Of a DNA stretch of 64,000 nt, positions 10,978 to 48,900 are shown in pieces. Origin of the DNA: Microbacterium sp. Clip185 (GTDB taxonomy: Bacteria > Actinomycetota > Actinomycetes > Actinomycetales > Microbacteriaceae); contig NZ_CP117996.1 in assembly GCF_028743715.1 (NCBI RefSeq), positions 2,170,001 to 2,234,000 on the forward strand. The letters are read 5' to 3'. The position numbers were made by a program, and so were the translations under genes. Within the stretch, counting starts at the first letter, position 1, and every line of letters starts with the position of its first letter. The notes under the pieces are model-generated. The model worked only from the letters and a program-made list of their open reading frames with translations. It was not told where the DNA came from and did not search any database.

Positions 10978-11385
10978 TCAGGAGGAGAGGACGCCCAGCT
11001 CGCCGAGAAGCCGCCGCACGCGCGCTTCGATGTCGTCGCGCACCTCGCGGACCATCTCCGCGCCCTGCCCGGCGGGATCGCGCAGCTCCCAGTCCTCGTA
11101 GCGCTTTCCCGGGAAGATCGGGCAGGCATCGCCGCATCCCATCGTGATCACGGCGTCGGCCTCGCGCACGTCGTCCGTCGCGAGCAGCTGCGGCACGTTC
11201 TCGGTGATGTCGATGCCCCGCTCGGCCATGACCTCGACCGCGACGGGGTTGATCGCGGATGCAGGCTCCGAGCCGCCCGAGCGCACTTCGACCCTGTCGC
11301 CGCCCAGCGCCCGGGCGAAGCCTGCGGCCATCTGCGAGCGTCCCGCATTGTGGACGCATACGAACAGGACGACGGGGACGCTCAT
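10978..11385 (-). CDS. arsC: Arsenate reductase, LMW-phosphatase fold
   Basis: This 135-residue protein carries the Cys-x5-Arg phosphate loop CVHNAGRS (Cys10-Arg16). Further features are SGGSEPASAINPVAVEVMAE and a tail ITMGCGDACPIFPGKRYEDW then LRDPAGQG. That tail is characteristic of ArsC proteins, including the mycothiol-dependent ArsC1/ArsC2 of Corynebacterium. It would reduce arsenate to arsenite in the cytoplasm. The start overlaps the rsmA stop as ATGA, so it is coupled to a ribosome-maturation gene rather than to an ars operon. No ArsR or arsenite exporter is in the window. Confidence 0.85.
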   Translation of the reverse strand: MSVPVVLFVCVHNAGRSQMAAGFARALGGDRVEVRSGGSEPASAINPVAVEVMAERGIDITENVPQLLATDDVREADAVITMGCGDACPIFPGKRYEDWELRDPAGQGAEMVREVRDDIEARVRRLLGELGVLSS

Positions 11386-26872: not shown

Positions 26873-28402
26873 GTGACCTCGAGCGCCCCGCCGACTGCGC
26901 CCGCGCCGCGCCGCTCGGCGATCGACGCGTTCTCCGAACGCATCCGCCGCTCCCGCGCCCTCGATCGGCGCGTGCAGGTGTGGACGCCCGTCCTGCTGAC
27001 TCTGTTCGCAGGAATCCTGCGGTTCGCGAACCTCGGAACGCCGTCCTCCCTGGTCTTCGACGAGACGTACTACGTGAAGGACGCGTGGTCGCAGTGGCTG
27101 CTGGGGTACACGGCCAACTGGCCCGAGGGAGCCGACGCCCTGTTCGCCCAGGACGACGTCCCGGCGCCGCTCGTGACGGGGAGCTTCTCCGTGCATCCTC
27201 CGCTGGGCAAGTGGCTCATCGGGCTCGGGATGTGGCTCTTCGGTTCCGGGGACTCGGTGGGCTGGCGCGTCGCAGTGGCCGCCGCGGGCACCCTCACCGT
27301 GCTCATCGTCTACTTCGTCGCGCGCACTCTGACCGGTTCGACGGCCGTGGCAGCGATCGCCGGCGGCCTCATGGCCATCGACGGTCTCGCCATCGTGCTC
27401 AGCCGCATCGCTCTCCTGGACGGCATCCTCGCGCTGTTCGTGGCGCTCGGCTTCTGGTTCGTCCTGCTCGATCGCCGCACGCACCTCGAACGCCTGCAGC
27501 GAGCACTCCCCGCGCGCGAGGAGGATGCGACCGGACCCGCGTGGGGACCGGTGTTCTGGAACCGGCCGTGGCTCGTCGCCGCCGGAGCGGCCGTCGGCGC
27601 CGCAACAGCGGTGAAATGGTCGGGCCTGTACGTGCTCGCAGCCCTCGGCCTCTACGTCCTCGTCACCGATGCCCTCGTCCGACGCCGACTCGGCATCCTG
27701 CAGTGGCCCGCGGATGCGGTGCGCCAGGGCGCTGCGGCGTTCGTGCTGCTCGTGCCTGTCGCAGCGATCGTGTACCTGGCCTCGTGGGCCGGCTGGCTCG
27801 CCAGCGCCGGCGGGTACGGGCGCGCGGCCGCATCCGAGGGTCTCGGCGGGGCGCTTGCCAGCCTCTGGCGCTACCACGAAGCGATCTACGCGTTCCACGT
27901 CGGGCTCACCACCCCCCACGGCTATCAGAGCCCGGCCTGGCAGTGGCCCCTGCTCGTGCGTCCGACGTCGATGTACTGGCACCAGAGTGGCGACACCGTC
28001 CAAGCGGTCTCGAGCATTCCCAACCCGCTGATCTGGTGGGCCGGCATCGCTGCGGCGCTCTACCTGCTCTACCGCTTCATCCGGACCCGCGACGCACAGG
28101 CGGCTTTCGTTCTCGTCGCCCTCGCCGCCACCTACGTGCCGTGGCTGCTGTACCCCGAGCGCACGATCTTCCAGTTCTACACGGTCGTGATGCTGCCGTT
28201 CCTCGTGATCGCCGTCGCTCTCGCGGCCCGGCGCATCGCCGGCTCGGCCGACGCCGACCGCCGCATCGCGGGCCAACGTGTGGTCGCGGTCTTCCTCGTC
28301 GCCTGCGTGGTGTTGTCCGCGTTCTGGTATCCGGTGTGGACGGCGATACCGGTGCCCTACGAGTTCTGGCGGCTGCACAACTGGCTGCCGAGCTGGGTCT
28401 GA
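26873..28402 (+). CDS. Dolichyl/polyprenyl-phosphate-mannose protein mannosyltransferase (PMT)
   Basis: This 509-residue GT39 membrane enzyme has about ten helices. The essential acidic pair is in the first outside loop (LVFDETYYVKDAW), followed by SFSVHPPLGKWLIG and IDGLAIVLSRIALLDGILA. PMT O-mannosylates Sec-exported proteins using polyprenyl-phosphate mannose. Substrates may include secreted proteins encoded in this window. It converges with the next small gene, two bases between stops. The orientation relative to rsmI matches other actinobacteria. Confidence 0.9.
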   Translation: MTSSAPPTAPAPRRSAIDAFSERIRRSRALDRRVQVWTPVLLTLFAGILRFANLGTPSSLVFDETYYVKDAWSQWLLGYTANWPEGADALFAQDDVPAPLVTGSFSVHPPLGKWLIGLGMWLFGSGDSVGWRVAVAAAGTLTVLIVYFVARTLTGSTAVAAIAGGLMAIDGLAIVLSRIALLDGILALFVALGFWFVLLDRRTHLERLQRALPAREEDATGPAWGPVFWNRPWLVAAGAAVGAATAVKWSGLYVLAALGLYVLVTDALVRRRLGILQWPADAVRQGAAAFVLLVPVAAIVYLASWAGWLASAGGYGRAAASEGLGGALASLWRYHEAIYAFHVGLTTPHGYQSPAWQWPLLVRPTSMYWHQSGDTVQAVSSIPNPLIWWAGIAAALYLLYRFIRTRDAQAAFVLVALAATYVPWLLYPERTIFQFYTVVMLPFLVIAVALAARRIAGSADADRRIAGQRVVAVFLVACVVLSAFWYPVWTAIPVPYEFWRLHNWLPSWV

Positions 28403-31255: not shown

Positions 31256-32395
31256 GTGGCGCAGAGACTGCCCGCGGCCCCGCCCGTTCTCCCCGGCTTC
31301 ACTTATGTGCGCCCCCTCGGCACGGGCGGTTTCGCCGACGTCTTCCTGTTCGAGCAGGACATGCCCCGCCGCCCGGTCGCCGTCAAAGTCCTCCTCGAGG
31401 ACATCGTCGACGACGGCCTGTTGCGCATGTTCAATGCGGAGGCCGATGTCATGGCGCGTTTGAGCGCGCATCCCTCGATCCTCACGATCTACCAGGCGAG
31501 CATCTCGTCCGATGGGCGGCCCTATCTCGTCATGGAGTACTGCCCCGGGTCCCTCGGCTCGCGCTACCGGCGTGAGGAGATCCCGCTGGCGGAGGTGCTC
31601 CAGGCCGGCATCCGGATCGGCTCGGCGCTCGAGACCGCGCACCGCTCGGGGCTGCTCCACCGCGACATCAAGCCCTCGAACCTCCTGGTGACGGCGTTCG
31701 GCGCGCCCGTTCTGGCCGACTTCGGTATCGCCACCGCTGTGGGCGGACGCGGCGACGAAGAAGTGTTCGCCATGTCGGTGCCGTGGAGCGCGCCCGAGAT
31801 CATCGACGAGCGAATCGCGGGCTCCGTACCCGCCGAGGTCTGGGCGCTGGGGGCGACCGTGTACTCCCTGTTGGCGGGACGAAGCCCCTTCGAGCGCCCC
31901 GGAAGCGGCCAGAACGGTCGCGATCAGCTCAAGGCCCGCATCCGCCGAGCCGTTTACACCCCCGTCGGCCGGGCCGACGTCCCCGCGAGCCTCGAGGCCG
32001 TACTGGCGCGCTCGATGCACCGCGACCCGGCCGGCCGCCACCCCTCGGCCGCCCAGTTCGCGTACGAGCTGCAGCTGATCCAGCACGAGCTCGGCCTGCC
32101 CCACACCCCGATGGAGGTCGCGGTCGACGAGTGGGCCTCCGCCGGAACCCCCGTGAACTTCGCCGACGATCGCGCCCGCGGTCCGGTGCGCCCCAGCGTG
32201 CAGTACGAATCGCGGCGGCCGGTACGCTCGCGCGACCGCGGCGGGCGTCGCCCCGATGAGGGCACGGTCCTCGCGGGTGCGTCGCCGCGCGGCCGCGGAC
32301 TCTCGGGTGGCATGATCGCCCTGCTCATCGGCGGCGCCGCCCTCGTGGCTGCGGCAGCCGTCCTCGTGACCGTCCTCGTCCTCGGAGGAGCCTGA
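31256..32395 (+). CDS. Membrane-anchored Ser/Thr protein kinase (PknB-like) without outside sensor
   Basis: This 379-residue Hanks-type kinase has G-loop LGTGGFADVF (21-30), Lys44 in VAVKV, Glu62, the catalytic loop HRDIKPSN (135-142) and DFG at 155-157. All key catalytic residues are intact. After the kinase domain (~15-285) comes a basic linker containing DEGTVL (Thr337). A single C-terminal membrane span (~353-376) leaves almost nothing outside, so no PASTA or other sensor. The GTG at 31256 has AAAGGGGGG upstream. It is the first gene of the eight-gene locus and is separated by one base from the giant surface protein, the likely partner on the outside. Confidence 0.9.
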   Translation: MAQRLPAAPPVLPGFTYVRPLGTGGFADVFLFEQDMPRRPVAVKVLLEDIVDDGLLRMFNAEADVMARLSAHPSILTIYQASISSDGRPYLVMEYCPGSLGSRYRREEIPLAEVLQAGIRIGSALETAHRSGLLHRDIKPSNLLVTAFGAPVLADFGIATAVGGRGDEEVFAMSVPWSAPEIIDERIAGSVPAEVWALGATVYSLLAGRSPFERPGSGQNGRDQLKARIRRAVYTPVGRADVPASLEAVLARSMHRDPAGRHPSAAQFAYELQLIQHELGLPHTPMEVAVDEWASAGTPVNFADDRARGPVRPSVQYESRRPVRSRDRGGRRPDEGTVLAGASPRGRGLSGGMIALLIGGAALVAAAAVLVTVLVLGGA

Positions 32396-32396
32396 G

Positions 32397-35300
32397 ATGG
32401 CCGAGGCCCCCCGCACCGGACTCGCCGACCGCCGCGGCTGGATCATCGGCGGCTCCATCGCCGCCGTGCTGGCCGTCGTCACGACGCTCGCCGTGGTGTG
32501 GCCCGGCTTCGACGCCCAGCAGACTCCGCCGGACGACGGCACGATCTGGGCGATGCAGTCCGGCGAGGGCCGACGCTACGCCCGCGTCAACACGACGGTC
32601 GGCGAGATCGACACCGTCAAGCAGGTCGAGAACCCCAGCGCGCTCATCCAGAACGCGAACCGCCTGCTGGTCTATGCCGAGGGCGACACCCGGTTCGCGG
32701 ACGTCGACATGGCGATGCCGGCCGATCTCAACGCCGACGCGGAGGACGCGTTCCAGAACACTCCGCCCGGTACCGTGGATGTCGTCTCCACCGGCGACAC
32801 GATCGCCTACCGCACCGACAACGGTGCCGTCTTCGCCGGCTCGCTCGCCTCACCGTCCAGCACCGTGCCCATCGACCCGTACGCCGAGACCCAGGTCGCC
32901 GAGGGCGAGGAACGGCCCGTCTTCGTCGCCGACAGCGTCACGGTCGGTGTGGACGGGATCGTCTACGCGTACTCATCCGCCGAGGAGCGCGTCGTGCGCG
33001 CCGACGCGCGCACCGGCAAGATCGAGGGCTCGGATGCGGTGACCGACGCACCCGCATCCGCCACTCTCAGCGCCGTGGGCACGACCTGGGCGCTGCTCGA
33101 ACCCGACTCCGGCCAGCTCTGGCTCCGCGGACGCGATCAGCCCCTCGATACCGGGACGATCGGCGGGCTCCTGCAGAAGTCGGGCTCGTCGCGCGACGAG
33201 GTCTACATCGCCGACACCACCGGACTCGTCGCCGTCCCCCTCGACGGCTCGGGCCCCGAGCGGGTCGTCGACGCCGCCCAGGGCACCCCCGCAGCTCCCG
33301 CGGAGGCGAAGGGCGTGATGTACGCGGCCTGGCTGCCCAACAGCCAGGCGCAGGGGACGCTCTGGAGCTCGGATGCGGGGCAGAGCGATCTGGACTATGC
33401 CGGAGGTTCGCTCGGCGACGAGGTCGCGCCGGAGTTCCTGAGCAACGGCTCGCGCATGATCTTGAACGAGACGCGCTCGGGCTGGGTCTGGACGCTGCCG
33501 AACGGGGCTCTCGTGCCCTCCTCGCAGCAGTGGGACTCCGATCAGGACGTGCCGACGCAGCAGCAGGAGGACATTCAGGCCGAGCGCGTGATCGATCCGA
33601 AGCCGCCCGTCGCCGTAGACGACGCCTTCGGTGTGCGCGCCGGTCGAAGCGCCGTGCTCCCGGTGCTGCTGAACGACCACGACCCGAACGAGGACGTGCT
33701 GAGCATCGTGGCCGCATCCGTCGAGGGCCTCGATCCGGCGTTCGCAACGGTATCGGTCTCGAACGAGCAGCAGGAGCTGGTCGTGCGCGTATCGCCGGAG
33801 GCGAGCGGGTCGACGACCTTCCGATACCGCGTCACGGACGGCACGACCAGCGACGGCCTCACCTCGCAACCGGCGACCGTCACCCTCACCGTCTCCCCAC
33901 CCGCGGCCAACACCGCACCGGTGTGGTGCGGTGTCGACGCCTGTCTCGCGACGTGGCCGTCCCCGCAGGTCGTGCCCGGCGGAACCGTCTCGGTCAACGT
34001 CCTCGAGGGCTGGGTCGATCCCGACGGCGATCCGATGTACATCTCCTCGGCCGTGAACCAGAGCGGAATCGGCTCGGTCGCCCTCGACCCGCAGGGCACC
34101 ATCACCTTCCAGCATCCCAATCCGAACCAGACCGACGCCCAGTCGGTCACGATCCTTGTGACTGTCACCGACGCCAGGGGCCTGTCGACCGAGAAGCCGC
34201 TCGAGATCGCGATCACTCCGAGCCCGCAACTGACTGCCGCGTCGTTCGCGGCGGTGGGAACCATCGGCGCACCCACCACGATCGACGTGCGCCCGCACGT
34301 GACCGGCGTCAACGGTGCCATCACGATGCGCAGCGCGAACTCCATCACGGATGCGGCGGCGCAGATCACCGTCAACGGTGTGGCCGGCACCTTCGTCTTC
34401 TCCGCCGCGAACCCCGGTTCGTACCTCGTGCAGTACACGGTCTCGGATGCGCTCGCCGAGGCCACCGGCACCGTGCGGGTCACCATCGTCGACCCCGCGG
34501 CGACACAGATCTCCACTCCGCCGCTCACCGCTTTCGTCCGTCCCGGAGAGGACGCGACGATCGATGTGATCTCCCCCGTGTCCAATCCCGCGGGCCTCGT
34601 GCTGCTGGCTAGCGATGTCACGGTCTCACCCGATCCCAGCGCCTCGCTGAGCGTCGACCTCGTCGGACAGAGCATGCTGCGGGTGGCCGGATCCACCGAC
34701 AACGCCCAGCCCGGGACGCTCGGCGTGGTGACGTACACGATCTCGGACGGAACCGGCAACGGCTACACCACCACGACCGGCGAGACGACCGTCGTGCTGC
34801 TGCCCTCCCCCACCGCGGAGCCGCCCATCGCCGTCGACGACGCCGTGACGGTGCGTGCGGGGGCGCAAATCGACATCCCGGTGCTCGACAACGACACCGC
34901 GCCGACGGGAGCGCAGTTCGCGATCGACCCGTCCCGCATCACGAACGAGTCAGGCGCGGGCCTCGCGTTCGCGACGGGCCGGCTGCTGCGCTACCTCGCC
35001 CCCTCTGAGCCCGGCACGTACAAGCTCGGCTACACGATCTACCGCATGGGCTTCCCCGACATGACCGACACCGCCACGGTGACCGTCACGGTCCTGCCCG
35101 AGGACTCGAACTCCGCTCCCGTGCCGCGCACGCTGGTCGGTCGCGTGTTGAGTGGTGCGACCGTCTCGATCCCGTTCGAGCGATACGCGATCGATCCCGA
35201 CGGCGACGCCGTGACGCTGGATCGCATCACAGCGCAGCCGGATCGCGGCTCGGCGGCCATCTCGCCCGAAGGCGACGCCATCCTCTACACGAGCTCGCCC

Positions 35301-38300
35301 GGCGACAAGGGCCAGGTCTCCTTCACCTATCAAGTGAAGGACGCGCTGGGCGCAGTCGGCGTGGGCGAGGTGCGCGTCGGCGTGCTGGATGCCGAATCGA
35401 ACCCGGCTCCGGTGACCTACAGCGACTACGTACAGGTGCAGGCCGGCGCCGACTCGGAGGCTGTCGTGCGCCCCGCCGACAACGACCTCGATCCCTCCGG
35501 CACCACGCTCGAGGTGATCGACGTGCGTCCGAACGCGGATGTGGGCTCCGAGGAGTACCGCGCGATGGACGCGATGATGCAGGGCGTCAAGGACAACGAG
35601 GTGCGCCTGAAGGCCGGCACGCAGCTCGGCACGTACTCGTTCGCGTACACGGTGCGCAACGCCCAGGGAGACACGGCCATCGGTCTGATCGTGCTCAAGG
35701 TCGTCCGCGATCCCGTACCCGACTACCCGTCGGTGCGCGACACGACGCTGACGGTCGAGACGCGGGAGGACTTCCCCGACGGCGTCGACGTGCTCAGCGG
35801 CAAGGTGTCCTGGAACGCGGGCGACGTGGGTGCACTGAAGCTCTCCCTGTGGGGCGATCCCGACGGCGTCTCGGTCGAGGGTCGCAAGATCTCGGGTCGC
35901 CTCCCCGACAAGACGGAGCTCATCCCGTTCCAGGTGACGGGCACAGCCTTCGACGGCAGCGAGGTGACGTCATACGGGTTCCTCAAAGTGCCCGGCACGA
36001 AGGACCTGCAGCTGAGCCTGCGCTCGTCCGCGGCGTCGGTGCAGGTCGACGAGCGCGGCACGGTGGATGTCGACCTCAGCCGTGCGGTCGCGCTGCCCCC
36101 GAACGCTGAGATCGAGATCGACGCGTCCCGCGTCGCCGCCGGCGGCGGCCGGGCCGAAGCCACGTGCGCCCTCGTGTCGGGCACGACCGTGCGATACTCC
36201 GCGGGCGCCGGCGCGCCCTGGACCGACAGTTGCGTCGTCCCGGTGCGCCTTCTCGGGCAGGACACCTACACCTACCTGACGATCCGCGTCGACGTCATCG
36301 CCGAGGACCCCCAGCCCGAGCTGCGCGCCGCGTCGCTCACCGTGAGCCCCGGCTCCTCCGCGACGTTCGAGCTGCGAGACATGACGACGTGGGCGGGCAC
36401 AGAGGACTGGGGTGCGCTGCAGTACGCCACCTCGTACGCCGGCGACCAGTTCACGATCTCGACCTCCGGCTCGCAGGTGACCGTCACGGCCCGCGACGCC
36501 GCACGTCCCGGCCGCCAGGAGCCGGTCACCGTCACCCTGCCGAGCCACCGCGACGTGCGCCCCGCCACCCTCGCCCTCCAGGTGGGGCCGGCTCCCTCGA
36601 CCCTGCCGAAGGGCGCGACGCTCACCCAGTCGTGCTTGCAGTCCTCGGGCAACGGCTGCACGATCGACGTCATCGGTCAAGGCGGCGAGATCAACCCGCT
36701 GCCCGGCACGCCTCTGAAGCTCGTCGCCGTCGGAGGCGCCTCGGGCGGCAGCTGCAATGGCGTCTCCTTCGGCGTCGCCAGCTCCACAGCCATCCAGGCG
36801 AACTGGTCGCCGGATGCCGACGGCACGCGCTGCACGGTGAGCTTCACGGTCGAGGACGCGCAAGGACGCCAGTCCGCGGGCGATCGCAACGGCCAGGTGA
36901 CGCTCGATCTGCAGGGATATCCCAAGGCGCCCAACAGCGTCACGCAGGTCGGTTTCGGCGATCGCACGATCACGCTGCGCGTCGATCCCGGCGCCGCGGG
37001 CAACGCCTACCCCGCGCTGCAGGGCTTCCACATCCTGCAGGGCGGCCAGCAGGTGACGACGTGCTCCGCCGCCGGAGCGTGCGAACCGTTCCAGGTCTCC
37101 AGCAACGGCGACCGCCGCACGTACGAGGCTCGCGCGTTCAACACGGTCGGCGAATCCCGCACGGGCGTGACGGTGCAGGCCTGGGCCTATCGGCAGCCGG
37201 CCGTCGGCAACGTCACCGCCGTGCCGGTCTACGACCGCAATCGGACGACCAATGATGCGGGCGCGGTGAAGATCGACATCCAGAACATCGACCCCGAGGT
37301 GCGCACCTACTCGGTCACGGGCGCGAATGGGGACGTGCCGCGCTCGGGAGGCGACACGACGGAGGTGACGGTCACGCTTCCGGTCGGTCAGGCCACGGTC
37401 ACGGTCACAGCCAACAGCGCGAACTCGGCGCCCGACGGCAGCGGCTCGATCGGTCAGACCAAGAACGTGGGCGTCCAGGTGGCGGGCCTGCCCCGCACCG
37501 ACGCTGTCGGAATCGCGGCCGAGCAGAAGAATGCGCTGGTCGTCACCGGGCCGAACGTGGATATGAACTGGAGCAACCGCGGCCGGGAGATCATCTACGT
37601 CGCGTACCGAGCCGGCTGGGGCGACTTCTCTTGCGATGTCGGCCCCGACGGCACGGGCCTGCGCGCGAACGTGAACGGGCAGACATCGCAGACGACGACC
37701 ATCAACGGCCTGCAGGAGAACCAGAAGTACACCGTCGGCGCGTGTGTCAGCAACGGCTTCGGCGCCGCGAAGAGCGCCACCGCCGACGGGTGGGCCTGGC
37801 AGCAGCCGGAGGCTCCCGCCGGCGGCACCTACTCGATCCGCCGCTCGACCGACTGGGACGGCAGCGTCTCTTACCGCGTCAACAACGTGGATGTGCCGGG
37901 CAAGTCCGGGTTCGAGACGGTGATCAACAACCGCGAGCCCGACTTCGGCCAAGAGGGTCAGATCACGGCGAAGTACTGCGTGAACGGGTCGAATCAGGAG
38001 CGCTGCAGCCCCGAGAGCGCGGTCGGCCCGGCTGACGCGACCAAGGCTCGTCAGGAGAAGCTCTCCAATCCGCAGATCACGCAGTGCACAGTGGGCAAGA
38101 ATCTGACGGTCGCGGTGAGCCAGGTGATCGGCGGACTCGGTAACGCCCGGATCAAGGAAGGCTCCGTCACCTACTACGGCGACGGCGTTCTCTTCCCCCA
38201 GCGCATCGATCCCGACCCCGCGAACCCGTTTAAGGTCCCGAACGGCACCAAGCGCGTCACGGCGACGATCGAGTTCGTGTGGTCGAACGGCGCCGCGACC

Positions 38301-38387
38301 TACCAGACCGAGACGTTCGATGTCCGTGCGGACTGCCAGGGCACCGTTGACCCGCCCGCCAACAACGACCCCACCACCGGAGGCTGA
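32397..38387 (+). CDS. Giant single-span surface protein with Ig/cadherin-like and FN3-like repeats
   Basis: This protein has 1996 residues. A short basic cytoplasmic tip is followed by one membrane span (~15-37). A propeller-like region (~45-395) comes next. Repeated beta-sandwich modules begin around 403 (PPVAVDDAFGVRAG), 507, 809 (PPIAVDDAVTVRAG), 907 and 1004. FN3-like modules run from ~1510 to ~1900. It holds sixteen cysteines that fall into eight close pairs, mostly in the C-terminal half, suggesting disulfides. There is no sortase signal, so it is anchored by the N-terminal span. The role is unknown; it may be the substrate or sensor of the kinase/MoxR/DUF58 machinery encoded with it. 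ATG 32397 is one base after the kinase stop. Confidence 0.85.
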   Translation: MAEAPRTGLADRRGWIIGGSIAAVLAVVTTLAVVWPGFDAQQTPPDDGTIWAMQSGEGRRYARVNTTVGEIDTVKQVENPSALIQNANRLLVYAEGDTRFADVDMAMPADLNADAEDAFQNTPPGTVDVVSTGDTIAYRTDNGAVFAGSLASPSSTVPIDPYAETQVAEGEERPVFVADSVTVGVDGIVYAYSSAEERVVRADARTGKIEGSDAVTDAPASATLSAVGTTWALLEPDSGQLWLRGRDQPLDTGTIGGLLQKSGSSRDEVYIADTTGLVAVPLDGSGPERVVDAAQGTPAAPAEAKGVMYAAWLPNSQAQGTLWSSDAGQSDLDYAGGSLGDEVAPEFLSNGSRMILNETRSGWVWTLPNGALVPSSQQWDSDQDVPTQQQEDIQAERVIDPKPPVAVDDAFGVRAGRSAVLPVLLNDHDPNEDVLSIVAASVEGLDPAFATVSVSNEQQELVVRVSPEASGSTTFRYRVTDGTTSDGLTSQPATVTLTVSPPAANTAPVWCGVDACLATWPSPQVVPGGTVSVNVLEGWVDPDGDPMYISSAVNQSGIGSVALDPQGTITFQHPNPNQTDAQSVTILVTVTDARGLSTEKPLEIAITPSPQLTAASFAAVGTIGAPTTIDVRPHVTGVNGAITMRSANSITDAAAQITVNGVAGTFVFSAANPGSYLVQYTVSDALAEATGTVRVTIVDPAATQISTPPLTAFVRPGEDATIDVISPVSNPAGLVLLASDVTVSPDPSASLSVDLVGQSMLRVAGSTDNAQPGTLGVVTYTISDGTGNGYTTTTGETTVVLLPSPTAEPPIAVDDAVTVRAGAQIDIPVLDNDTAPTGAQFAIDPSRITNESGAGLAFATGRLLRYLAPSEPGTYKLGYTIYRMGFPDMTDTATVTVTVLPEDSNSAPVPRTLVGRVLSGATVSIPFERYAIDPDGDAVTLDRITAQPDRGSAAISPEGDAILYTSSPGDKGQVSFTYQVKDALGAVGVGEVRVGVLDAESNPAPVTYSDYVQVQAGADSEAVVRPADNDLDPSGTTLEVIDVRPNADVGSEEYRAMDAMMQGVKDNEVRLKAGTQLGTYSFAYTVRNAQGDTAIGLIVLKVVRDPVPDYPSVRDTTLTVETREDFPDGVDVLSGKVSWNAGDVGALKLSLWGDPDGVSVEGRKISGRLPDKTELIPFQVTGTAFDGSEVTSYGFLKVPGTKDLQLSLRSSAASVQVDERGTVDVDLSRAVALPPNAEIEIDASRVAAGGGRAEATCALVSGTTVRYSAGAGAPWTDSCVVPVRLLGQDTYTYLTIRVDVIAEDPQPELRAASLTVSPGSSATFELRDMTTWAGTEDWGALQYATSYAGDQFTISTSGSQVTVTARDAARPGRQEPVTVTLPSHRDVRPATLALQVGPAPSTLPKGATLTQSCLQSSGNGCTIDVIGQGGEINPLPGTPLKLVAVGGASGGSCNGVSFGVASSTAIQANWSPDADGTRCTVSFTVEDAQGRQSAGDRNGQVTLDLQGYPKAPNSVTQVGFGDRTITLRVDPGAAGNAYPALQGFHILQGGQQVTTCSAAGACEPFQVSSNGDRRTYEARAFNTVGESRTGVTVQAWAYRQPAVGNVTAVPVYDRNRTTNDAGAVKIDIQNIDPEVRTYSVTGANGDVPRSGGDTTEVTVTLPVGQATVTVTANSANSAPDGSGSIGQTKNVGVQVAGLPRTDAVGIAAEQKNALVVTGPNVDMNWSNRGREIIYVAYRAGWGDFSCDVGPDGTGLRANVNGQTSQTTTINGLQENQKYTVGACVSNGFGAAKSATADGWAWQQPEAPAGGTYSIRRSTDWDGSVSYRVNNVDVPGKSGFETVINNREPDFGQEGQITAKYCVNGSNQERCSPESAVGPADATKARQEKLSNPQITQCTVGKNLTVAVSQVIGGLGNARIKEGSVTYYGDGVLFPQRIDPDPANPFKVPNGTKRVTATIEFVWSNGAATYQTETFDVRADCQGTVDPPANNDPTTGG

Positions 38388-38391
38388 ATCG

Positions 38392-39353
<962 letters not shown>

Positions 39354-39357
<4 letters not shown>

Positions 39358-40718
39358 CCGATTCCTCCTCCCGCATCACCCGGATCGGCTCGACGTCCAC
39401 CTCGACGTCGACCGCCGGGAGCACGCGCACGCGCTACGACACGTCGCGTTCCACGACGGTCATCGTCGTGGGCGGCATCCGCTTCTGGCGGCGCGTGCGA
39501 CGAGCCGTCGCCCGCGCCTCCCGCGCGGTCGCCGACACCGTCACCGCGGGAGGATGGCTGCTGATCGGTGCGGCCGCCATCGGTCTGAGCCTGGGCATCG
39601 TGTTCGGGTGGATCGAGTTCGTCCTGGCCGGTGCCGTCGCCGCCGTCCTCGTGCTGTGCGCGGCGCCCTTCCTGTTCGGCGCACGTGCCTACCGCGTCAG
39701 CCTGGGCCTCGCGCACGATCGCGTGGTCGCCGGCAGCGAGGTCGCCCTGTCGCTGCGCGTCGTGAACGTCGGTAAGGGCGTCGCCCTTCCCGGCCGCGTC
39801 GACGTGCCTGTCGGCGAAGGCCTCGTCGACGTCGCGATCCCTCTGCTGCGCCACGAGGCCGCGCACGAGGAGGAGTTGACGATCCCGGGCCTGCGTCGTG
39901 GCGTGCTCGACATCGGCCCCGCGCGCGCCGTCCGCGGCGACCCGCTCGGCATCCTGCGCCGCGAGGTCGTGTGGGAGGACATCCACACGCTGTACGTGCA
40001 CCCCGTCACGACCGCGATCCCGAGCACCGCGACCGGCTTCATCAAGGACCTCGAGGGCAATCCCTCCTCGCTCGTCGTGGACGCCGACATCTCGTTCCAT
40101 GCGATCCGCGAGTACGCCCCCGGCGATTCGCAGCGCCAGATCCACTGGAAGTCCACCGCGAAGACCGGAACCCTCATGGTGCGCCAGTACGAGGAGTCCC
40201 GCCGATCGCGGATGGTGATCGTGCTGGCCACGGGCGAGGAGGACTACGCCGACGACGAGGAGTTCGAGCTCGCCGTCAGCGCCGCGGCCTCGCTCGGCGT
40301 GCGCGGCATCCGCGACGGACGCGACGTCTCCGTCGTCGTCGGCGGCGAGGTACCGGAATTCGCCCGGCGGGCCGTCCGCTCCTCCCGGGACCTCGCGACC
40401 ATCACCGCGCGAACCCTCCTCGACGAGCTCGCCGGCGTGGAGAAGGGCGAGCGCATCACCGGGCTCCGGGATGTCGCGAGCCTGGCGGTGGAGGCGCACC
40501 GCGACGTCTCCATCGGCTTCCTCATCTGCGGCTCCACCCCGACCCTGCGGATGCTGCAACACGCCGCCCTGGCCTTCCCCGCCGACACGGGCGTCGCCGC
40601 CATCGTGTGCGACCCCACAGCGGAGCCCGGCTTCCGCACGATCGGCGGTGCGTCGATCGTGACGATGGGTCTGCTCGAGGACCTCCGCCACATCCTCGCC
40701 CGGAGCGCACAGTCATGA
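39354..40718 (+). CDS. DUF58 membrane protein
   Basis: This 454-residue protein has a Ser/Thr-rich cytoplasmic N-terminus and two membrane spans (~62-105). The DUF58 signature is FHAIREYAPGDSQRQIHWKS, then TAKTGTLMVRQYEE, followed by a VWA-like alpha/beta domain. DUF58 proteins pair with MoxR ATPases; a metal-ion-dependent adhesion-like domain is proposed for the family. The GTG start at 39354 overlaps the moxR stop by four bases, and the end overlaps the next gene by ATGA. Confidence 0.88.
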
Positions 40719-43216
40719 GCGCCCCCGCCGCACGCGCCCGGGCGCGCCGACCCCGCCGCAGCGATCGCGACATCGCGTTCCTCGTCGGCAACATCGCCTT
40801 CATCGACGCGCTCCTCGCGATCGGCGCCGCATCCGCGTGGGCGATCTACCGCAGCGGCTGGTTCGTGCTCGTCGCGGCGGTGGCGATCGTGGTCTCCACC
40901 GGGATCGCTCTGCTCGCCGTGTGGCGGCCGATGCGCTGGTGGCAGCTCGCTCTGATCACCGCAGGGGCGTACGTCGTCGTGGGTGTGCCCGTCGCCGCGC
41001 CGACGATGATCACCGACCCTGCGACGATCCTGCCGGGCATCTGGGGCGTCGTGAGCGCACCGGTCACGGGGTGGAAGAACCTGCTGACGCTGGAGCTGCC
41101 GCTCGGCGTGTACCAGGCGACCCTGGCGCTCCCCCTCTTCCTGATGCTCTCGCTCGGCACGCTGGCTCTCCTGCTCGCGCTTCGCGCCCCCAGGCTGTGG
41201 GTGCTCGCGGCACCCCTCGCGCTTGTGATCACCGCGTTCGGCGTGCTGTTCGGCTCGAGCGCCGTGGACGGCTCGTGGCGCATCGGCGCCTGGGAGCTCG
41301 ACGGCGTCTGGGAGGCGGTGGTCGGCCTCGGCGCTCTCCTCACGGGCTTCGCCTGGTACGTCTGGCGCAATGTTCACACGCGTCGGGTCGCCCTGCGCGT
41401 CGCGCGCACAGCGAGCGGCGTGCGCTCCTCCGTGCGTGTCGCGCGTACTCTCGGAAGCCGCATCGCCCTCGCCGCCGGGATGCTCGTCGTCGCCCTCGCG
41501 CTGGGGCTCGCGCTCGCGCCCTGGGCGATCGCCGGCTCGTCACGCGACGTGCTGCGCACCGCGGTGGACCCCGTGCTGAAGGTGCGTCAGACGCTGAGCC
41601 CGCTCGCCGACTACCGCGCCGCGTTCTCCGACGAGCGGTTCGACGACGTGCTGTTCACCGTCGCCGCCGACTCGGGCGTCGACCGGGTGCGTCTGGCCAC
41701 GCTGAGCTACTACGACGGCCGCGTGATGCGCGCCACCGACCCGCAGACGGGCGACCGCTCCGACAGCACCGAGTTCCGTCGGGTGCCCGCATCCCTGCCC
41801 GCAGACACGGGCGATCGGGCCTCTGCCACCTTCACGATCGGCGACTACACGGGCATCTGGGTGCCCGCAGTGGGAGATCTCACCTCGATCGACTTCTCGG
41901 GATCGACGCGAGCAGCACTGTCGGACGGCTTCTTCTACAACCCGGACTCCGCCACGGGCGTCGAGCTTTCGGATCCGGGACTCGCCTCCGGTGTCACCTA
42001 CACGCAGACCGGTGTCGTCACAGACGCTCCGCGTGACCCGGGGACGCTCACGCCGTCCCGTTCCGGGACGTTCGATCCGGCCTTCGTCCCCGAATCCCTC
42101 GAGGAATGGGTGAGCGCGCAGGATGCGCCCTCCGGCGGCGCCGGGCTCGTCGAGCTGATCTCGCGCCTGCGGGCGCGCGGGCTGCTCTCGCACGCGCTGA
42201 CGCTCGATCCCGGAACCGTTCCGATGTGGGCGCAAAAGCTCGGCGACTACACCTTCGAGCCCAGCCGCAGCGGGCACTCCACCGACCGTATCGGCGACCT
42301 GTTCAGCGAACTGCTGAAGAAGCAGAACGAGACCGGTGGCACCGATGACTCGCTGCTCGTGTCGGCAGCCGGTGACGACGAGCAGTTCGCCGTGGCGGGC
42401 GCCCTCATCGCGGATCACCTGGGCTTTCCCGCCCGGGTCGTGCTCGGCACACGACTGAGCAGCGATGATGCGGATCTCCCCGTGTGCGAAGACGGCACGT
42501 GCACGAGCGGTGACCTCGCCGCATGGATCGAGGTCCGCGACGCGGACGGCACGTGGACGGCGATCGACACGACCCCGCAGCACCGCGTACCGCTCTCGCC
42601 CGACATCCAGCAGCGTCGCGACCCGCAGAACATGACACCGGTCGAGCCGGAGCAGGCGGACACGGTCCTCCCGCCCGAGGCGGACCCTGCCGACGCCACC
42701 CCGCCGCAGAGCGACGAGCCCACCGATCCCCTCGACCTCGCGTGGCTGTGGGCGACCCTGCGGATCTCCGGCATCGTCATCTTCGCCCTCCTCATCCTGC
42801 TGATGCCCGCGATCGCGGTGCTCGCGGCGAAGATCATGCGCCGGCGAGCCAGACGCTCCTCGGCCGATCCCGTCGACCGCGTGGTCGGCGGCTGGGAAGA
42901 GTACCTCGACACCGTGGTCGATCACGGTCACCGCATCCCGCCCGCTGCGACCCGTTCGGAGACCGCGAGCGCCGTGGGCGTCGCGGAGTCGACCGACCCC
43001 GCGACGCTGGCGGCTCTCGCCGACCGCGCGGTGTTCGCGCCGGGAACGACCACCGAAGCGGAATCCACGAGGTTCTGGGAGCTCATCGACCAGGAACGAC
43101 AGCGTTTCGCGTCCACAGGCGGCCTGTGGACGCGTTGGAAGGCTCGGCTGTCGCTACGCTCGTTCGCACGCGGATTACGCGAGGCTGCGTCGCGAGATGG
43201 AAGGGGACGACCATGA
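40715..43216 (+). CDS. TgpA-like transglutaminase-fold membrane protein with degenerate active site
   Basis: This 833-residue protein has about seven N-terminal helices (20-270), a large outside region, and a final span near 690-712, followed by a ~120-residue cytoplasmic tail. The outside region holds a transglutaminase/protease-like core, but the canonical Cys-His-Asp triad is broken. The block corresponding to GxCExFA reads GDDEQFA (Asp555 in place of Cys), and HAWxEV reads AAWIEV (Ala603 in place of His). Only the Asp (618, AIDTTP) remains. It is unlikely to be a cysteine transglutaminase and may be a structural or binding module. ATGA overlaps couple it to DUF58 and PP2C genes. Confidence 0.82.
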   Translation: MSAPAARARARRPRRSDRDIAFLVGNIAFIDALLAIGAASAWAIYRSGWFVLVAAVAIVVSTGIALLAVWRPMRWWQLALITAGAYVVVGVPVAAPTMITDPATILPGIWGVVSAPVTGWKNLLTLELPLGVYQATLALPLFLMLSLGTLALLLALRAPRLWVLAAPLALVITAFGVLFGSSAVDGSWRIGAWELDGVWEAVVGLGALLTGFAWYVWRNVHTRRVALRVARTASGVRSSVRVARTLGSRIALAAGMLVVALALGLALAPWAIAGSSRDVLRTAVDPVLKVRQTLSPLADYRAAFSDERFDDVLFTVAADSGVDRVRLATLSYYDGRVMRATDPQTGDRSDSTEFRRVPASLPADTGDRASATFTIGDYTGIWVPAVGDLTSIDFSGSTRAALSDGFFYNPDSATGVELSDPGLASGVTYTQTGVVTDAPRDPGTLTPSRSGTFDPAFVPESLEEWVSAQDAPSGGAGLVELISRLRARGLLSHALTLDPGTVPMWAQKLGDYTFEPSRSGHSTDRIGDLFSELLKKQNETGGTDDSLLVSAAGDDEQFAVAGALIADHLGFPARVVLGTRLSSDDADLPVCEDGTCTSGDLAAWIEVRDADGTWTAIDTTPQHRVPLSPDIQQRRDPQNMTPVEPEQADTVLPPEADPADATPPQSDEPTDPLDLAWLWATLRISGIVIFALLILLMPAIAVLAAKIMRRRARRSSADPVDRVVGGWEEYLDTVVDHGHRIPPAATRSETASAVGVAESTDPATLAALADRAVFAPGTTTEAESTRFWELIDQERQRFASTGGLWTRWKARLSLRSFARGLREAASRDGRGRP

Positions 43217-44052
43217 CCGGGATCGTCGTCATGGCCGGAGCGCGCTCCGACGTCGGCCGCGTCCGCAAGCTCAACGAGGACGCGGTGCTCGCGCAGTACC
43301 CCGTGTTCCTCGTCGCCGACGGCATGGGAGGCCATGAGGCGGGCGATCTGGCCAGCGCCGCGGTCGTGGATGCCTTCCGTCACCTCGTGGGTCGCGACGA
43401 CGTTCAGCCCGAGGAGGTGGTCACCGCCGTCGAGTCGGCGCACACCGCTGTCTCTCAGGTCGCCGGACGCCACGCTCGCGGCGCCGGCTCCACCCTCGCC
43501 GCCCTGGTCGCCGTGGTGCAGAACGGATCGCACGCGTGGCTCGTCGTGAACATCGGCGACTCCCGCGTGTACCGACTCGTCGGCAGTTCCCTCGAACAGC
43601 TCACCGTCGATCACTCGGTGGTGCAGGAGCTCGTGGATGCCGGCAAGATCAGCCGCTCCGAGATGTCGACGTATCCGGGTCGCAACGTCATCACCCGCGC
43701 CGTCGGCGACAGCCAGAGCCCCGCCGACTACTGGCTCTCCCCCATCGTGACCGGTGAGCGCATGCTGCTGTGCTCGGACGGGCTGTCGAACGATCTGAGC
43801 GACGAGGCGGTGCTGGCCGGCCTCAGCCTCGGCGGCTCCGCCGAGCAGACCGCGCACGCGTTGGTGGACCAGGCGCTCGCCCGCGGCGGCCGCGACAACA
43901 TCAGCGCCGTCGTGGTCGACGTGCGCTCGGGGGGACTCGCTCCTCGCGCCGACGAGGTCACGGGCGGATTCGCGACGAGCGAGCAGGCCGCGGTGCAGCC
44001 CATCGAGGTGGACACCATCACCTCGCGCAGAGAACGGCCGATCCGTGGCTGA
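43213..44052 (+). CDS. PP2C-type Ser/Thr protein phosphatase
   Basis: This 279-residue soluble phosphatase has the metal-binding and core motifs KLNEDAVL, VADGMGGHEAG, GSTLAALV, VNIGDSRVYRL, LCSDGLSND and GGRDNISAVVVD. It is the expected counterpart of the kinase at the start of the locus. About 30 residues follow the catalytic core, ending VDTITSRRERPIRG, which loosely resembles the Thr-repeat motif of the last gene. It overlaps the upstream gene by ATGA and the FHA gene by eight bases. Confidence 0.93.
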   Translation: MTGIVVMAGARSDVGRVRKLNEDAVLAQYPVFLVADGMGGHEAGDLASAAVVDAFRHLVGRDDVQPEEVVTAVESAHTAVSQVAGRHARGAGSTLAALVAVVQNGSHAWLVVNIGDSRVYRLVGSSLEQLTVDHSVVQELVDAGKISRSEMSTYPGRNVITRAVGDSQSPADYWLSPIVTGERMLLCSDGLSNDLSDEAVLAGLSLGGSAEQTAHALVDQALARGGRDNISAVVVDVRSGGLAPRADEVTGGFATSEQAAVQPIEVDTITSRRERPIRG

Positions 44053-44986
44053 GCGGACCTGGTTCGAAGGCCCCCTGCCCGCCATCGCCACCGGTACGCT
44101 CGCGGTGATCGTGGGGGGCGACGCCGCCGTCGCGGCGGCACGACGCGTGCTGTCGACGGGCACGATGCCCGGGACACCCGAGATCCTGGACGCCCTGATC
44201 GCCGACGGCATCGCCGCGGTACCGGCTTTCGCCGTGGTTGCGTTGGATGACGACCGCCTCACCGCGTTCGTCCGCGGCGAGTTCGTGCTCCGCTTCGAAG
44301 ACCGCTCGCGACGAGTGTGGCGTGTCGACGGCGTCGGCGCCCACACCTGGCGCGAGGTGGAGGCAGCATCGGTGGTGCGCGCCTGGGCAGGCGCCCCTGA
44401 CGCCGAGCCGAAGCTGTTCGATCTGGGTCCGACGCCGGAGCGTCCCGTGCGCGTCGGACCGACGACGGCTGCGGGCATCATGCTCCGCGGGCGCCCCGCC
44501 GTGGCACGGCCTTCGATCCCCGCGGCCCCTCCCGCCGCTGCGGCCCCCGCGCCACGCCCGACCGCGGCCGAGCCCCCGGACGACGAGACCGTCGTGACGA
44601 GCTCGAGCGCTCTCGCTCCGAAGCCTGCGCCGCGCACCCCACGTGCGCCGCGCGCCATCGAGCTGCCGGGCGGCGAAATCGTGCCGATCCACGGCACTCT
44701 GCTGGTCGGACGAGGTCCCCGCAGCTCCCGCGTGGAGGGCGACGACCTGCCGACCCTGGTGGCACTCGGCGACGTCTCGCGCGATGTCTCTCGTGCGCAC
44801 GTGAAGATCTGGACCGACGGAACGCGCGTGCAGATCGAAGACCTCGCGACGCCGGGCGGGACCGCCGTCATCGACGCGGACGGCGTCGCACGGCTGCTCG
44901 TCCCCGACCGCGCGGTAGAGGTGCGCGAGGGTGCGAGCGCCGAGCTCGCCGGCGGCGCCCGCATCCGCTTCGTGGGAGAAGCATGA
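44045..44986 (+). CDS. FHA domain protein
   Basis: This 313-residue protein has an unassigned N-terminal domain (~1-130), a Pro/Ala-rich linker containing DDETVV (Thr182), and a C-terminal FHA domain. The FHA domain has the phosphothreonine-binding signature: LLVGRGP (Arg223), SRAH (Ser249-His252) and the later Asp/Thr-Gly turn IEDLATPGGTAV. FHA domains read phosphothreonine. With a kinase, a phosphatase and a Thr-repeat protein in the same operon, its ligand is probably made in the locus. The GTG start overlaps the phosphatase stop by eight bases. Confidence 0.87.
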   Translation: MAERTWFEGPLPAIATGTLAVIVGGDAAVAAARRVLSTGTMPGTPEILDALIADGIAAVPAFAVVALDDDRLTAFVRGEFVLRFEDRSRRVWRVDGVGAHTWREVEAASVVRAWAGAPDAEPKLFDLGPTPERPVRVGPTTAAGIMLRGRPAVARPSIPAAPPAAAAPAPRPTAAEPPDDETVVTSSSALAPKPAPRTPRAPRAIELPGGEIVPIHGTLLVGRGPRSSRVEGDDLPTLVALGDVSRDVSRAHVKIWTDGTRVQIEDLATPGGTAVIDADGVARLLVPDRAVEVREGASAELAGGARIRFVGEA

Positions 44987-45921
44987 CCGACGCAGACGAC
45001 AACACCCGGCTCTCGCGCCGCGGGCCCGACGCGAGCGAGCAGCCCGAGGACAGCACCCAGCTCGTGAGCCGGCGCGACCGACGCAACGCCTCACCGCCGC
45101 CCGCCGACGCCACGGCCATCGTGCCCCGCGAGGCGCCGGCGCCGCCCGCCGACGAGACCGTGATGGTGGACCGCGCATCCACCGCCTCTCCGCCGGCCGA
45201 AGACGCCGACGACCGCACCGCGCTCGTGCGGCGTCCCGCCTCATCCCCCTCCCCCTCGGCGGATCAGGCGCCGATCTCCGACGAACCGGACGACGGCACG
45301 CTGCTGGTGCGCCGGCCCGCTCCGGCCACGGATGCGACCGCGGTCGTCCGGCGGGCCGAGCCGGTCCCCGCCGCGGACGACGACGAGCACACGATCCTCA
45401 CGCCACGCTCGCCCGTGACAACCGACGAGCTCGACACCGACGACACGGTGCTTCGTCCCCGTGACGAACCGCAGGACGCGACCTTGCTGCGCCGCCGCGA
45501 ACGCCCGGCGAATGCCGCCGCGGATGCGGATGCGGATGCGGATGACACCGTGCTGCGTCCGCGGGATGCGGTCGCCGAGGACGCGACGAGCCTGTCCCCG
45601 CGCGGGGCGACGTCGGCTGCCGCGCCGCGTCTCACACGAGCACGCCGCTCCGTCGCGACACAGACCGAATCGTTCGCGCCCGATGCCCGGACCGACCGCA
45701 CCCCCGCCCGCGAGCGGTACGCGATCCGCACCCCCACGATCTCGGCCGCGCCGAGCTCCACCGCCTCTGCGCCCGAGGTCGTCGACCTCGGCGATGGTGG
45801 GCTCGCGGCTCGGATCGCCCGACGTCGCGCCACCCGCACCCGGCTGACGATTCTCGCGGGCGTCTCCGCGGTCGTGTTCGTCGGGTCGATCGTGGGTCTC
45901 GCGACGCTGCTGAGCATCTGA
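44983..45921 (+). CDS. Tail-anchored disordered protein with twelve Thr-centred repeats
   Basis: This 312-residue protein is predicted disordered for its first ~280 residues and has one C-terminal span (~286-310), so the repeats lie in the cytoplasm. Twelve copies of [DE]-x-T-x-[LIVM]-x-x-R are centred on Thr8, 25, 44, 59, 79, 106, 119, 137, 155, 167, 189 and 202; examples are DDGTLLVRR and ADDTVLRPR. Position -2 is Asp in eleven copies and Glu in one, +2 is aliphatic or Met in all, and +5 is Arg in all. I infer multi-site kinase substrate and FHA docking platform; no characterised family is recognised. The start overlaps the FHA gene by ATGA. Confidence 0.8.
   Translation: MTDADDNTRLSRRGPDASEQPEDSTQLVSRRDRRNASPPPADATAIVPREAPAPPADETVMVDRASTASPPAEDADDRTALVRRPASSPSPSADQAPISDEPDDGTLLVRRPAPATDATAVVRRAEPVPAADDDEHTILTPRSPVTTDELDTDDTVLRPRDEPQDATLLRRRERPANAAADADADADDTVLRPRDAVAEDATSLSPRGATSAAAPRLTRARRSVATQTESFAPDARTDRTPARERYAIRTPTISAAPSSTASAPEVVDLGDGGLAARIARRRATRTRLTILAGVSAVVFVGSIVGLATLLSI
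45520..45543 (+). repeat. Hexanucleotide tandem repeat inside the Thr-repeat gene
   Basis: GCGGAT is repeated four times, encoding Ala-Asp pairs just before repeat 11. Slippage would change the linker length in frame. Confidence 0.85.
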
Positions 45922-45935
45922 GCCTCTGCTCGGGT

Positions 45936-45941
45936 TAGCAT
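45936..45941 (+). promoter_or_regulatory. Leaderless -10 element for hrpA
   Basis: TAGCAT eight bases before the GTG at 45950, in the 28-base gap after the Thr-repeat gene. Confidence 0.4.
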
Positions 45942-45949
45942 CGAAGGCT

Positions 45950-48900
45950 GTGTCAACGCCGGAACCCGTCATCTCGTTCCCTCCCGAGCTGCCCGTCAGC
46001 GCGGCCCGGGAGGAGATCGCGCGCGCCATCGAGGATCATCAGGTCGTGATCGTCGCCGGCGCGACGGGTTCCGGCAAGACGACGCAGCTCCCGAAGATCT
46101 GCCTCCAGCTGGGGCGCACGCGTATCGCGCACACCCAGCCCCGCCGCATCGCCGCTCGGACGATCGCCGAGCGCATCGCCGAAGAGCTGCAGGTACCGCT
46201 CGGCTCCACCGTCGGGTACAAGGTGCGCTTCACCGACAAGGTCTCCGTCGACACCCGTGTCGCGCTGGTGACCGACGGCATCCTGCTCAACGAGATCCAC
46301 CGCGATCGCCTTTTGCGCCGCTACGACACGATCATCATCGACGAGGCGCACGAACGCTCCCTCAACATCGACTTCCTGCTCGGGTACCTGCGCCGCATCC
46401 TTCCCGAGCGCCCGGATCTGAAGGTCATCGTGACCTCCGCCACGATCGATCCCGAAAGCTTCGCACGCCACTTCGCCGATGCCGACGGCGTCCCCGCCCC
46501 GGTCGTCGAGGTGTCGGGACGCACCTACCCCGTCGAGATCCGCTACCGGCCGCTCGTCCCGGAGACGGACGACGAGGCAGAGAATGCGGCCGCTCCCGAG
46601 GCCGACGACGAGGTGACCGCCATCGTTCAGGCGCTGCGGGAACTCGACGCCGAAGCACCCGGCGACGTCCTCGTGTTCCTGCCGGGCGAAGCGGAGATCC
46701 GGGATGCGGCGGATGCGGTGCGCGCGGCCTATGCCTCGGCCACCGCGCCCACCGAAGTGCTCCCCCTGTACGGCCGGCTGTCGGCGGCCGAACAGCATCG
46801 GGTGTTCGAGCGATCTCGCGTCGCGGGAGTGCGACGCCGGGTGATCCTCGCGACCAACGTCGCCGAGACGAGTCTGACGGTTCCCGGCATCCGTTACGTC
46901 ATCGACACCGGCACCGCCCGCATCTCGCGGTACAGCAACCGGTCGAAAGTGCAGCGGCTGCCGATCGAGGCCATCTCCCAGGCCTCCGCGCAGCAACGCT
47001 CCGGCCGTGCCGGACGAACGGCGCCGGGCATCGCGATCCGCCTGTACGGGGAAGGCGATTTCGAGCGGCGCCCCGTCTTCACGGAGCCGGAAATCCTCCG
47101 GACCTCTCTCGCCGCCGTCATCCTGCAGATGCTCGCGCTCGGATTCGGTGACATCTCCGCCTTCCCGTTCCTCACCCCCCCGGATTCCCGGGGCGTCCAG
47201 TCGGCGTTCGACCTGCTCGTCGAGCTGCAGGCCGTCCGTCAGAGTCGGCAGGGTTCCTCGCTCACGCAGCTCGGGCGGGAGATCTCCCGGCTGCCGATCG
47301 ATCCGCGTTTCGCACGCATGCTCGTCGAGGCGCGGCGCACCGACGTCCTGCCCGACGTGCTCGCAATCGTGGCCGGCATGTCGATCCAGGACGTGCGCGA
47401 GCGTCCCGAGGAGCGCCGCGAGGAAGCGGATCGACTGCACGCGCGCTTCGTCGATCCCACGAGCGATTTCCTGACTCTCCTGAACCTGTGGAACCACCTG
47501 CGCGAGCAGCAGGACGAGCTCGGTTCGAGCGCGTTCCGTCGGCTGTGTCGGGCGGAGATGCTCAACTACGTGCGCGTGCGGGAGTGGTTCGACGTGCACC
47601 GGCAGCTCTCACAACTGCTGGGCCTGCGCCGCGACGCCGAGCGTACGGGTGGCGCAGCGGACCCCGCCGCGGTGCATCGCGCTCTGCTGTCCGGGCTGCT
47701 CTCGCACATCGGCATCCTCGATGAACGAGAGAAGGGCAGAGAGGGCAAGGGCACGCGGTCGGAGTACCGCGGGGCTCGCGGCACACGTTTCGCGCTGTTC
47801 CCCGGATCCGGCCTGCGCAAGAAGCGGCCGACCGCGGTCATGGCCGCGGAACTCGTCGAGACGAGCCGGCTCTTCGCCCGCACGGTCGCGGCGATCGATC
47901 CGGCCTGGGCCGAGCCGCTCGCAGGGGACCTCGCCAAGCGGCAGTTGAGCGAGCCGCACTGGTCGAAGGATGCCGGCGCCGCCACCGCCTACGAGAAGGT
48001 CACCCTGTTCGGCGTCGAGATCATCCCGCGACGACGCGTGCAGCTGGCCCGCTTCGATCGCCCCCTCGCGCGTGAGATGTTCGTGCGCCACGCGCTCGTC
48101 GACGAGGAGTGGGATCCCTCACGCCTGGCGAAGCCGCTCACCGCATTCGCGCGTCGCAACCTCGAGCTGCGCCGCCGGCTGGAGAAGGTCGAGGAACGCG
48201 AACGTCGCCGTGACATCCTGGCCGGCGACGAGGCGGTCTACGCCTTCTACGACGCGCGCATCCCCGCGGATGTGTTCGACGCCCGCTCGTTCGAGTCCTG
48301 GTGGAAAGACGCGATCGCACGAACGCCCCGCTTGCTCGATCTGAGCGAGGAAGACCTGCTGGACGGCGCGGAACGCGCCGACGAGCGCGCCTTCCCGACC
48401 CGCTGGAGGCAGGGCGATCAGGTTCTCTCGCTCGCGTACCGGTTCGAGCCGGGGGCCGCCGACGACGGCGTGACCGCGGTCGTCCCGCTCGCGCTCCTGG
48501 CGCAGCTGTCGCCGCAGGGGTTCGACTGGCAGGTACCGGGACTGCGCGACGAGCTCATCACCGCACTGCTGCGGGCGCTGCCCAAGTCCATCCGACGCCA
48601 CGTCGTGCCGGCGGCGGATTGGGCGGCGCGCTTCGCCGAGGAGCTCGCCGGCGCGGGCCCCGAGGACCACGCGGGGCTCCCGCCGCTCTCCCTTCGAGAC
48701 GCCCTCGCCTCGCGCATCCAGCGGGTCGCCAACCAGCCCGTGCGCGCGTCCGACTTCGAGATGGAACGGGTGCCCGATCACCTGCTGATCTCGTTCCGCG
48801 CGGTCGACGAGCGGGGCCGCGCGGCCGGTTCGGGCCGAGACCTGGGCGACCTGCAGGAGCGTTTCGCCGATCGCGCACGCTCGTCGGTCGCACGCTCGCT

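Follow-up and report, generated by a model that had tools for sequence, protein, structure and literature searches.

A repeated threonine motif in a PFNA-like operon of Microbacteriaceae: a candidate multivalent scaffold for FHA readers

The PFNA operon of Bifidobacterium is arranged in the order pkb2-fn3-aaa-atp-duf58-tgm-prpC-hypothetical-fha (PMC8430577; PMC6803598; these and the other papers cited by PMC number are drawn on in excerpt). The same order of kinase, giant protein, MoxR, DUF58, transglutaminase, PP2C and FHA genes is found in Microbacterium sp. Clip185, within the 64,000-nucleotide stretch of contig NZ_CP117996.1 (positions 2,170,001 to 2,234,000) that was analysed here and is called the window. 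It is followed there by a gene at 44983-45921 whose product carries the motif [DE]-x-T-x-[LIVM]-x-x-R in twelve copies, and this repeat protein, a candidate scaffold for phosphothreonine-reading FHA domains, is the subject of the present analysis. The excerpts of the two PFNA papers make no mention of a repeat scaffold. As Pfam finds immunoglobulin (Ig)-like and cadherin-like domains and zero fn3 domains in the giant protein (E 0.01), the run is referred to as PFNA-like and not as PFNA. The seventh PFNA gene was tried as a counterpart of the repeat protein and rejected; at L205, which is bifidobacterial only by guess, the gene between PP2C and FHA (10927-11740) encodes a protein without the motif array. 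The neighbouring FHA protein of that locus has WDSTVLSP ahead of its domain.

Several described systems share parts of this design. In GarA, the FHA domain binds the ETTS phosphosite, which is located N-terminal to the domain on an unstructured extension (PMC5448819). In Rv1747 of Mycobacterium tuberculosis, a module of FHA domains and disordered linker condenses more readily once phosphorylated and forms clusters at the membrane (PMC9312465). The likeness to the present locus lies in the disordered segment, the FHA domains and, as proposed here, the control by kinase and phosphatase; phosphorylation and clusters belong to Rv1747, which combines FHA domains and linker in one protein, whereas here a dedicated, predicted tail-anchored protein bears the motifs only. 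Threonine motifs on one scaffold are likewise seen in the repeat regions of vertebrate MDC1, with SDTD and NBS1 as part of the comparison. The reading of phosphothreonine by FHA is a property of MDC1, which is eukaryotic and serves the DNA-damage response, and a sequence relation is not claimed (PMC11884936). In type VII secretion system e, TseK/TseJ is a single-span protein whose cytoplasmic stretch is unstructured, and its neighbours are an FHA protein, a PPM phosphatase and a kinase; however, the stretch is short, the excerpt mentions no repeat, and the machinery is different (PMC11217815). A type VII secretion reading of the present locus was also considered.

The repeat gene of the window has the following features.
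44983..45921, forward strand: repeat protein gene, 312 residues, with a predicted disordered N-terminal region holding the twelve motif copies and a C-terminal hydrophobic span
44998..45603, forward strand: array of twelve [DE]-x-T-x-[LIVM]-x-x-R copies
45004, 45055, 45112, 45157, 45217, 45298, 45337, 45391, 45445, 45481, 45547 and 45586, forward strand: threonine codons of the array
45718..45729, forward strand: Y-A-I-R box, a second conserved element, N-terminal to the span
45844..45912, forward strand: C-terminal hydrophobic span, with basic residues just ahead

The sequence-only reading had described twelve copies spaced 11-27 residues apart in a disordered chain, with a single C-terminal span keeping them all in the cytoplasm. 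Twelve strict matches are indeed present (Thr at residues 8, 25, 44, 59, 79, 106, 119, 137, 155, 167, 189 and 202), against 0.12 expected from composition shuffling of the part before the span, where twelve was reached in 0 of 500 trials; their spacing is corrected to 12 to 27 residues. The motif occurs in eight of the stop-to-stop frames of at least 80 residues in the window, with a single copy in each of the seven besides the repeat gene. Every threonine codon of the array is ACC or ACG, and the tandem DNA repeats found in 44900-46000 are limited to a 25-base GCGGAT run and a 19-base one at the stop codon, neither spanning the array, so that the copies appear to be kept at the protein level. 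The disorder is borne out by prediction: the AlphaFold2 model, made without an alignment, has a mean predicted local distance difference test score (pLDDT) of 49.9 and a single confident helix at 273-311. This helix agrees with the single span; the topology is suggested by the basic residues ahead of the hydrophobic stretch, with which a cytoplasmic N-terminal tail fits. Most simply, therefore, the predicted protein would be a disordered cytoplasmic tail held at the membrane by its C-terminal span. The box ahead of the span, in the form Y-x-[PIV]-R, is found in 46 of 78 proteins against 3.6 expected, at a median of 41 residues before the span, and may be a docking site.

What the array retains is its threonine. 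Residues were counted in 76 regions, two kinase-like proteins with zero strict copies (L168 and L170) being left out. When the centre of the motif was left free ([DE]-x-X-x-[LIVM]-x-x-R), the 382 matches had Thr in 318, Ala in 24, Ser in five and other residues in 35, on a background of 8.4% Thr and 6.5% Ser overall, and in three of the five Ser-centred matches a Thr adjoins the Ser. With one representative for each of 17 lineages (defined by transglutaminase identity, from 61 loci), Thr was counted in 89 and Ser in none of 106 sites. Among nine close homologues, identity reaches 98.1% at the motif Thr, 96.3% at the acid and 98.1% at the Arg, against 52.4% in the linkers and 48% at the other Ser/Thr of the region. 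Drift of the threonines in homologues, named beforehand as an outcome that would speak against a phosphothreonine scaffold, was thus looked for and not seen. These counts support threonine as one of the least variable positions, almost never exchanged for serine, which is what reading by FHA domains would require. Taken over 362 sites, the consensus reads D-D-x-T-V-[LVI]-[SVA]-x-R-R, with the Arg in 88% of them. It resembles, without being equal to, the PknA motif of M. tuberculosis, which has acids at -1 and -3 to -6, Leu/Val at +3 and Lys/Arg at +4 (PMC7164672).

Used as a query, the repeat protein itself matched only 2 of 150 genomes of the family and 2 of 59 of the genus, its own genome counted in both, and relatives were hence collected by synteny from the transglutaminase gene, which has matches at 1e-30 in 163 of 198 genomes of the family. 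The FHA protein was dropped as an anchor, having matched 142 of 199 genomes with many paralogues. A scan of named genomes with the transglutaminase covered the best 80 of 199 loci, mostly from Microbacterium and Cryobacterium and a few with other titles, and searches of a 5.8-billion protein set returned 17, 1 and 18 hits, each among the approximately 8000 best-sharing candidates. From 101 loci with the anchor, five duplicates (L160, L161, L162, L163 and L165) and 13 with less than 2.2 kb after the transglutaminase gene were removed, and 83 were usable. A syntenic gene with motif copies and a C-terminal span comes after the anchor, at a distance of a few kb at most, in 77 of these, nearly all from Microbacteriaceae; the genes were picked by at least one strict or loose copy plus a C-terminal hydrophobic stretch, which inflates this presence count, not the Thr/Ser ratio of the further copies. 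Together with that of the window, the 78 proteins hold 318 strict copies against 4.9 expected: three have none, nine have one, 16 have two and 50 have three or more, up to 14 in L175. For a second family of the same order, 18 genomes with a match were listed and 11 loci were fetched; the repeat gene is present in all 11 and holds between 2 and 7 strict copies. The assignment of this family to Bifidobacteriaceae was dropped at a G+C content of 0.66-0.75. At five loci of other families (L195, L196, L198, L199 and L200), the operon continues after PP2C with FHA and kinase genes, with no repeat gene there.

The genes around the repeat gene, and the motif-like sites within them, are listed below.
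31256..32395, forward strand: Ser/Thr kinase with a C-terminal hydrophobic span (VAVK 41, HRDIKPSN 135, DFG 155; Pfam Pkinase 1.9e-37)
Codon 32264 (Thr337), forward strand: DEGTVLAG of this kinase, just ahead of its span
32397..38387, forward strand: giant protein of 1996 residues with bacterial Ig and cadherin-like domains (Pfam Big_9, Cadherin_5, Cadherin_4)
38392..39357, forward strand: MoxR-type AAA ATPase (searched with Pfam as the longer frame that starts at 38320)
39354..40718, forward strand: DUF58 protein
40715..43216, forward strand: membrane protein with a transglutaminase core, the synteny anchor
43213..44052, forward strand: PP2C phosphatase, with the C-terminal tail EVDTITSRRERPIRG
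44045..44986, forward strand: FHA protein of 313 residues, with a PP2C-like fold at residues 1-151 (model), a disordered linker and the FHA domain at 202-313
Codon 44588 (Thr182), forward strand: DDETVV in the linker of the FHA protein, without Arg at +5

All these genes, up to and including the repeat gene, stand on one strand and overlap or nearly touch; the ATG of the repeat gene overlaps the stop codon of the FHA gene, and a DEAH-type helicase with DUF3418 comes after the repeat gene. The kinase has the catalytic Lys, HRD and DFG of the Hanks type. Kinase, phosphatase and FHA had been placed beside the repeat gene, and all three belong to one gene run; the kinase, however, is not adjacent and lies some 12.6 kb upstream on the same strand. 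A few kb ahead of it is a gene of the protein O-mannosyltransferase family (26873-28402). In several Microbacterium loci (L082, L084, L085, L087 and others), a further FHA gene is found directly upstream of the operon kinase, as seen in the first 500 bases; at the counterpart position, the window has a DUF255 thioredoxin-like gene on the opposite strand.

The motif is also seen outside the array. The FHA domain adjoins the transglutaminase in 82 of 96 loci, and in 67 of these 82 a strict motif occurs within 60 residues N-terminal to the domain, against 0.7 expected by shuffling; its Thr is 15 residues ahead of the profile domain start in 61 loci. This puts a Thr motif into disordered sequence before the FHA domain, the same place as in the GarA/OdhI switch, and the operon FHA proteins differ from GarA in being larger and in having a separate protein with many motif copies. 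Likewise, the 72 upstream kinases, all with HRD-[IV]-KP-x-N and DFG, have [DE]-x-T within 45 juxtamembrane residues in 67 cases against 16.4 expected, often as DEGTVLAG or RDEDTDIS. The motif is below chance in the MoxR, transglutaminase and Ig proteins, and DUF58 has 13 against 9.7 expected. In seven Microbacterium loci, the array forms the tail of a kinase-like protein: that of L082 keeps HRDIKPGN and DFG, the HRD loop and DFG are missing in L085, L087, L089, L090 and L095, and L096 has the seventh fusion. The fusions of those five loci are the second kinase-like gene of their operon.

Array and FHA-side motif were compared at their variable positions in the 61 loci that have the latter and at least one strict array copy. 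Agreement within a locus was 0.281 against 0.201 when permuted (p 0.00045, 17 lineages). Over all 61 loci, the FHA-side motif agreed with the arrays of near relatives at 0.289 and with its own array at 0.274.

From the anatomy of the repeat protein, its synteny, the selective retention of threonine, the shared motif and the kinase fusions, we infer the biochemical steps of phosphorylation, FHA binding, competition, clustering and output. The gene product would serve a PFNA-like envelope operon as a disordered, tail-anchored scaffold, and its repeat threonines may be phosphorylated by the operon kinase or by a different Hanks kinase of the same cell. The system's FHA proteins would bind the phosphorylated copies, several at once, and the operon PP2C would reset the phosphates of the tail. 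In most relatives, the FHA partner, once phosphorylated about 15 residues ahead of its domain, may bind itself as GarA does, and the repeat tail would compete with this intramolecular ligand. The tail would thereby bring FHA molecules together with kinase and phosphatase at the membrane; its valency would be set by copy number, and control of the MoxR/DUF58/transglutaminase/Ig machinery would be the putative output. A membrane scaffold of this kind, written by a kinase, read by FHA and erased by a phosphatase, is considered fairly probable. A fuller version can be put forward tentatively, as a reasonable possibility: one motif would be used twice, in cis as the single self-inhibitory phosphosite of the reader FHA and in trans on the scaffold, whose array has as many as 14 copies, so that phosphorylation would convert readers from the self-bound state to a multivalent membrane cluster with a threshold tuned by repeat number, built into a pseudokinase in some species.

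Several observations weigh against this scaffold. High valency is not general, since 28 of the 78 proteins fall below three strict copies, three of these with none at all; a recognisable repeat gene is missing at six of the 83 usable loci (L099, L129, L153, L164, L169 and L173), and the array is found in 0 of 20 loci of other families, among which L197 encodes a short one-span protein with two loose copies. The writer is not fixed, because the kinase gene lies far from the repeat gene and five matches in the genome exceed the Pkinase cut-off. The within-locus resemblance of the motifs may be due in part or entirely to shared ancestry, as near loci agree as well as the own locus does. In a type VI secretion system, a kinase condenses with Fha, and the Fha foci need the active kinase and not the Fha phosphosite (PMC12607579). 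Data on phosphorylation or binding were not found for any member. In literature searches limited to open-licence papers, none of the titles and abstract openings described a bacterial protein dedicated to such a multi-motif tail, which is weak evidence of absence.

The window FHA domain, too, counts among the adverse points. It is recognised by both fold and sequence profile and keeps the phosphate-holding Arg223 and Ser249, but has Gly271 at a position that is Asn in 97% of 120 aligned domains, and its linker motif DDETVV is the incomplete one listed above. The role of reader earlier given to the FHA protein of the preceding gene is thus doubtful, although two of its three ligand-site residues stand. 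Because of the Asn, the reader may instead be an unlinked FHA protein, either the paralogue at about 2.799 Mb of the same genome (L216) or one of GarA/FhaA type; as a version of the best explanation, with odds that overlap those of the latter, this is possible, if somewhat doubtful. The paralogue keeps the Asn, has EDTVIASR ahead of its domain, so that in this genome the motif of the GarA/OdhI comparison is carried by the unlinked protein, and is 62% identical over 117 residues of its N-terminal part to the operon FHA of L121. Profiles matched no other operon gene in the surrounding 19 kb. The overlap of the window FHA gene with the repeat gene, and the retained Arg and Ser, speak for the window protein. 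The paralogue stands outside the operon in its own genome, although its relatives sit inside. As for the window protein, its residues 1-151 (44045-44497) adopt a PP2C-like fold in the model and give only short weak BLASTP matches to the operon PP2C; this N-terminus is probably a pseudophosphatase fused to FHA.

The array could also be a phosphorylation sink or timer, in which many sites absorb kinase activity and so delay or buffer phosphorylation of the FHA switch, with no FHA binding to the repeats. Copy number is variable while the motif is constant, and the array motif matches the FHA-side site, so that one kinase could act on both. A kinase consensus would suffice for a sink, yet Ser is nearly absent from the centre of the motif, which fits FHA reading better and makes the sink unlikely. 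Hanks kinases accept Ser in many substrates.

Still less likely is a linear docking motif that acts without phosphorylation, for example for the pseudokinase or MoxR, with the Thr fixed for packing. Close homologues keep the Arg at +5 and the acid at -2 about as strictly as the Thr, but the position before FHA domains, the acidic Thr in the juxtamembrane tails of kinases and the kinase/PP2C/FHA run form a usual setting of phosphothreonine sites. Low-complexity repeat expansion with no function of its own is highly improbable: copy number varies, and L088, the sole relative tested for DNA repeats, has a 36-bp unit in 5 copies with 97% match, but the window array is no DNA repeat and Thr, acid and Arg are kept while the linkers drift.

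Multivalent phosphothreonine scaffolds read by FHA domains are already known from eukaryotic DNA repair and from bacterial proteins that bear both FHA domains and sites. If the proposed scaffold is true, two actinobacterial families would possess a dedicated one with natural copy numbers from none to fourteen, and the effects of valency on switching and clustering would become measurable in living bacteria. The scaffold would further suggest a logic of signalling for the widespread run of kinase, MoxR, DUF58, transglutaminase and giant surface-type protein, the regulation of which is little understood.
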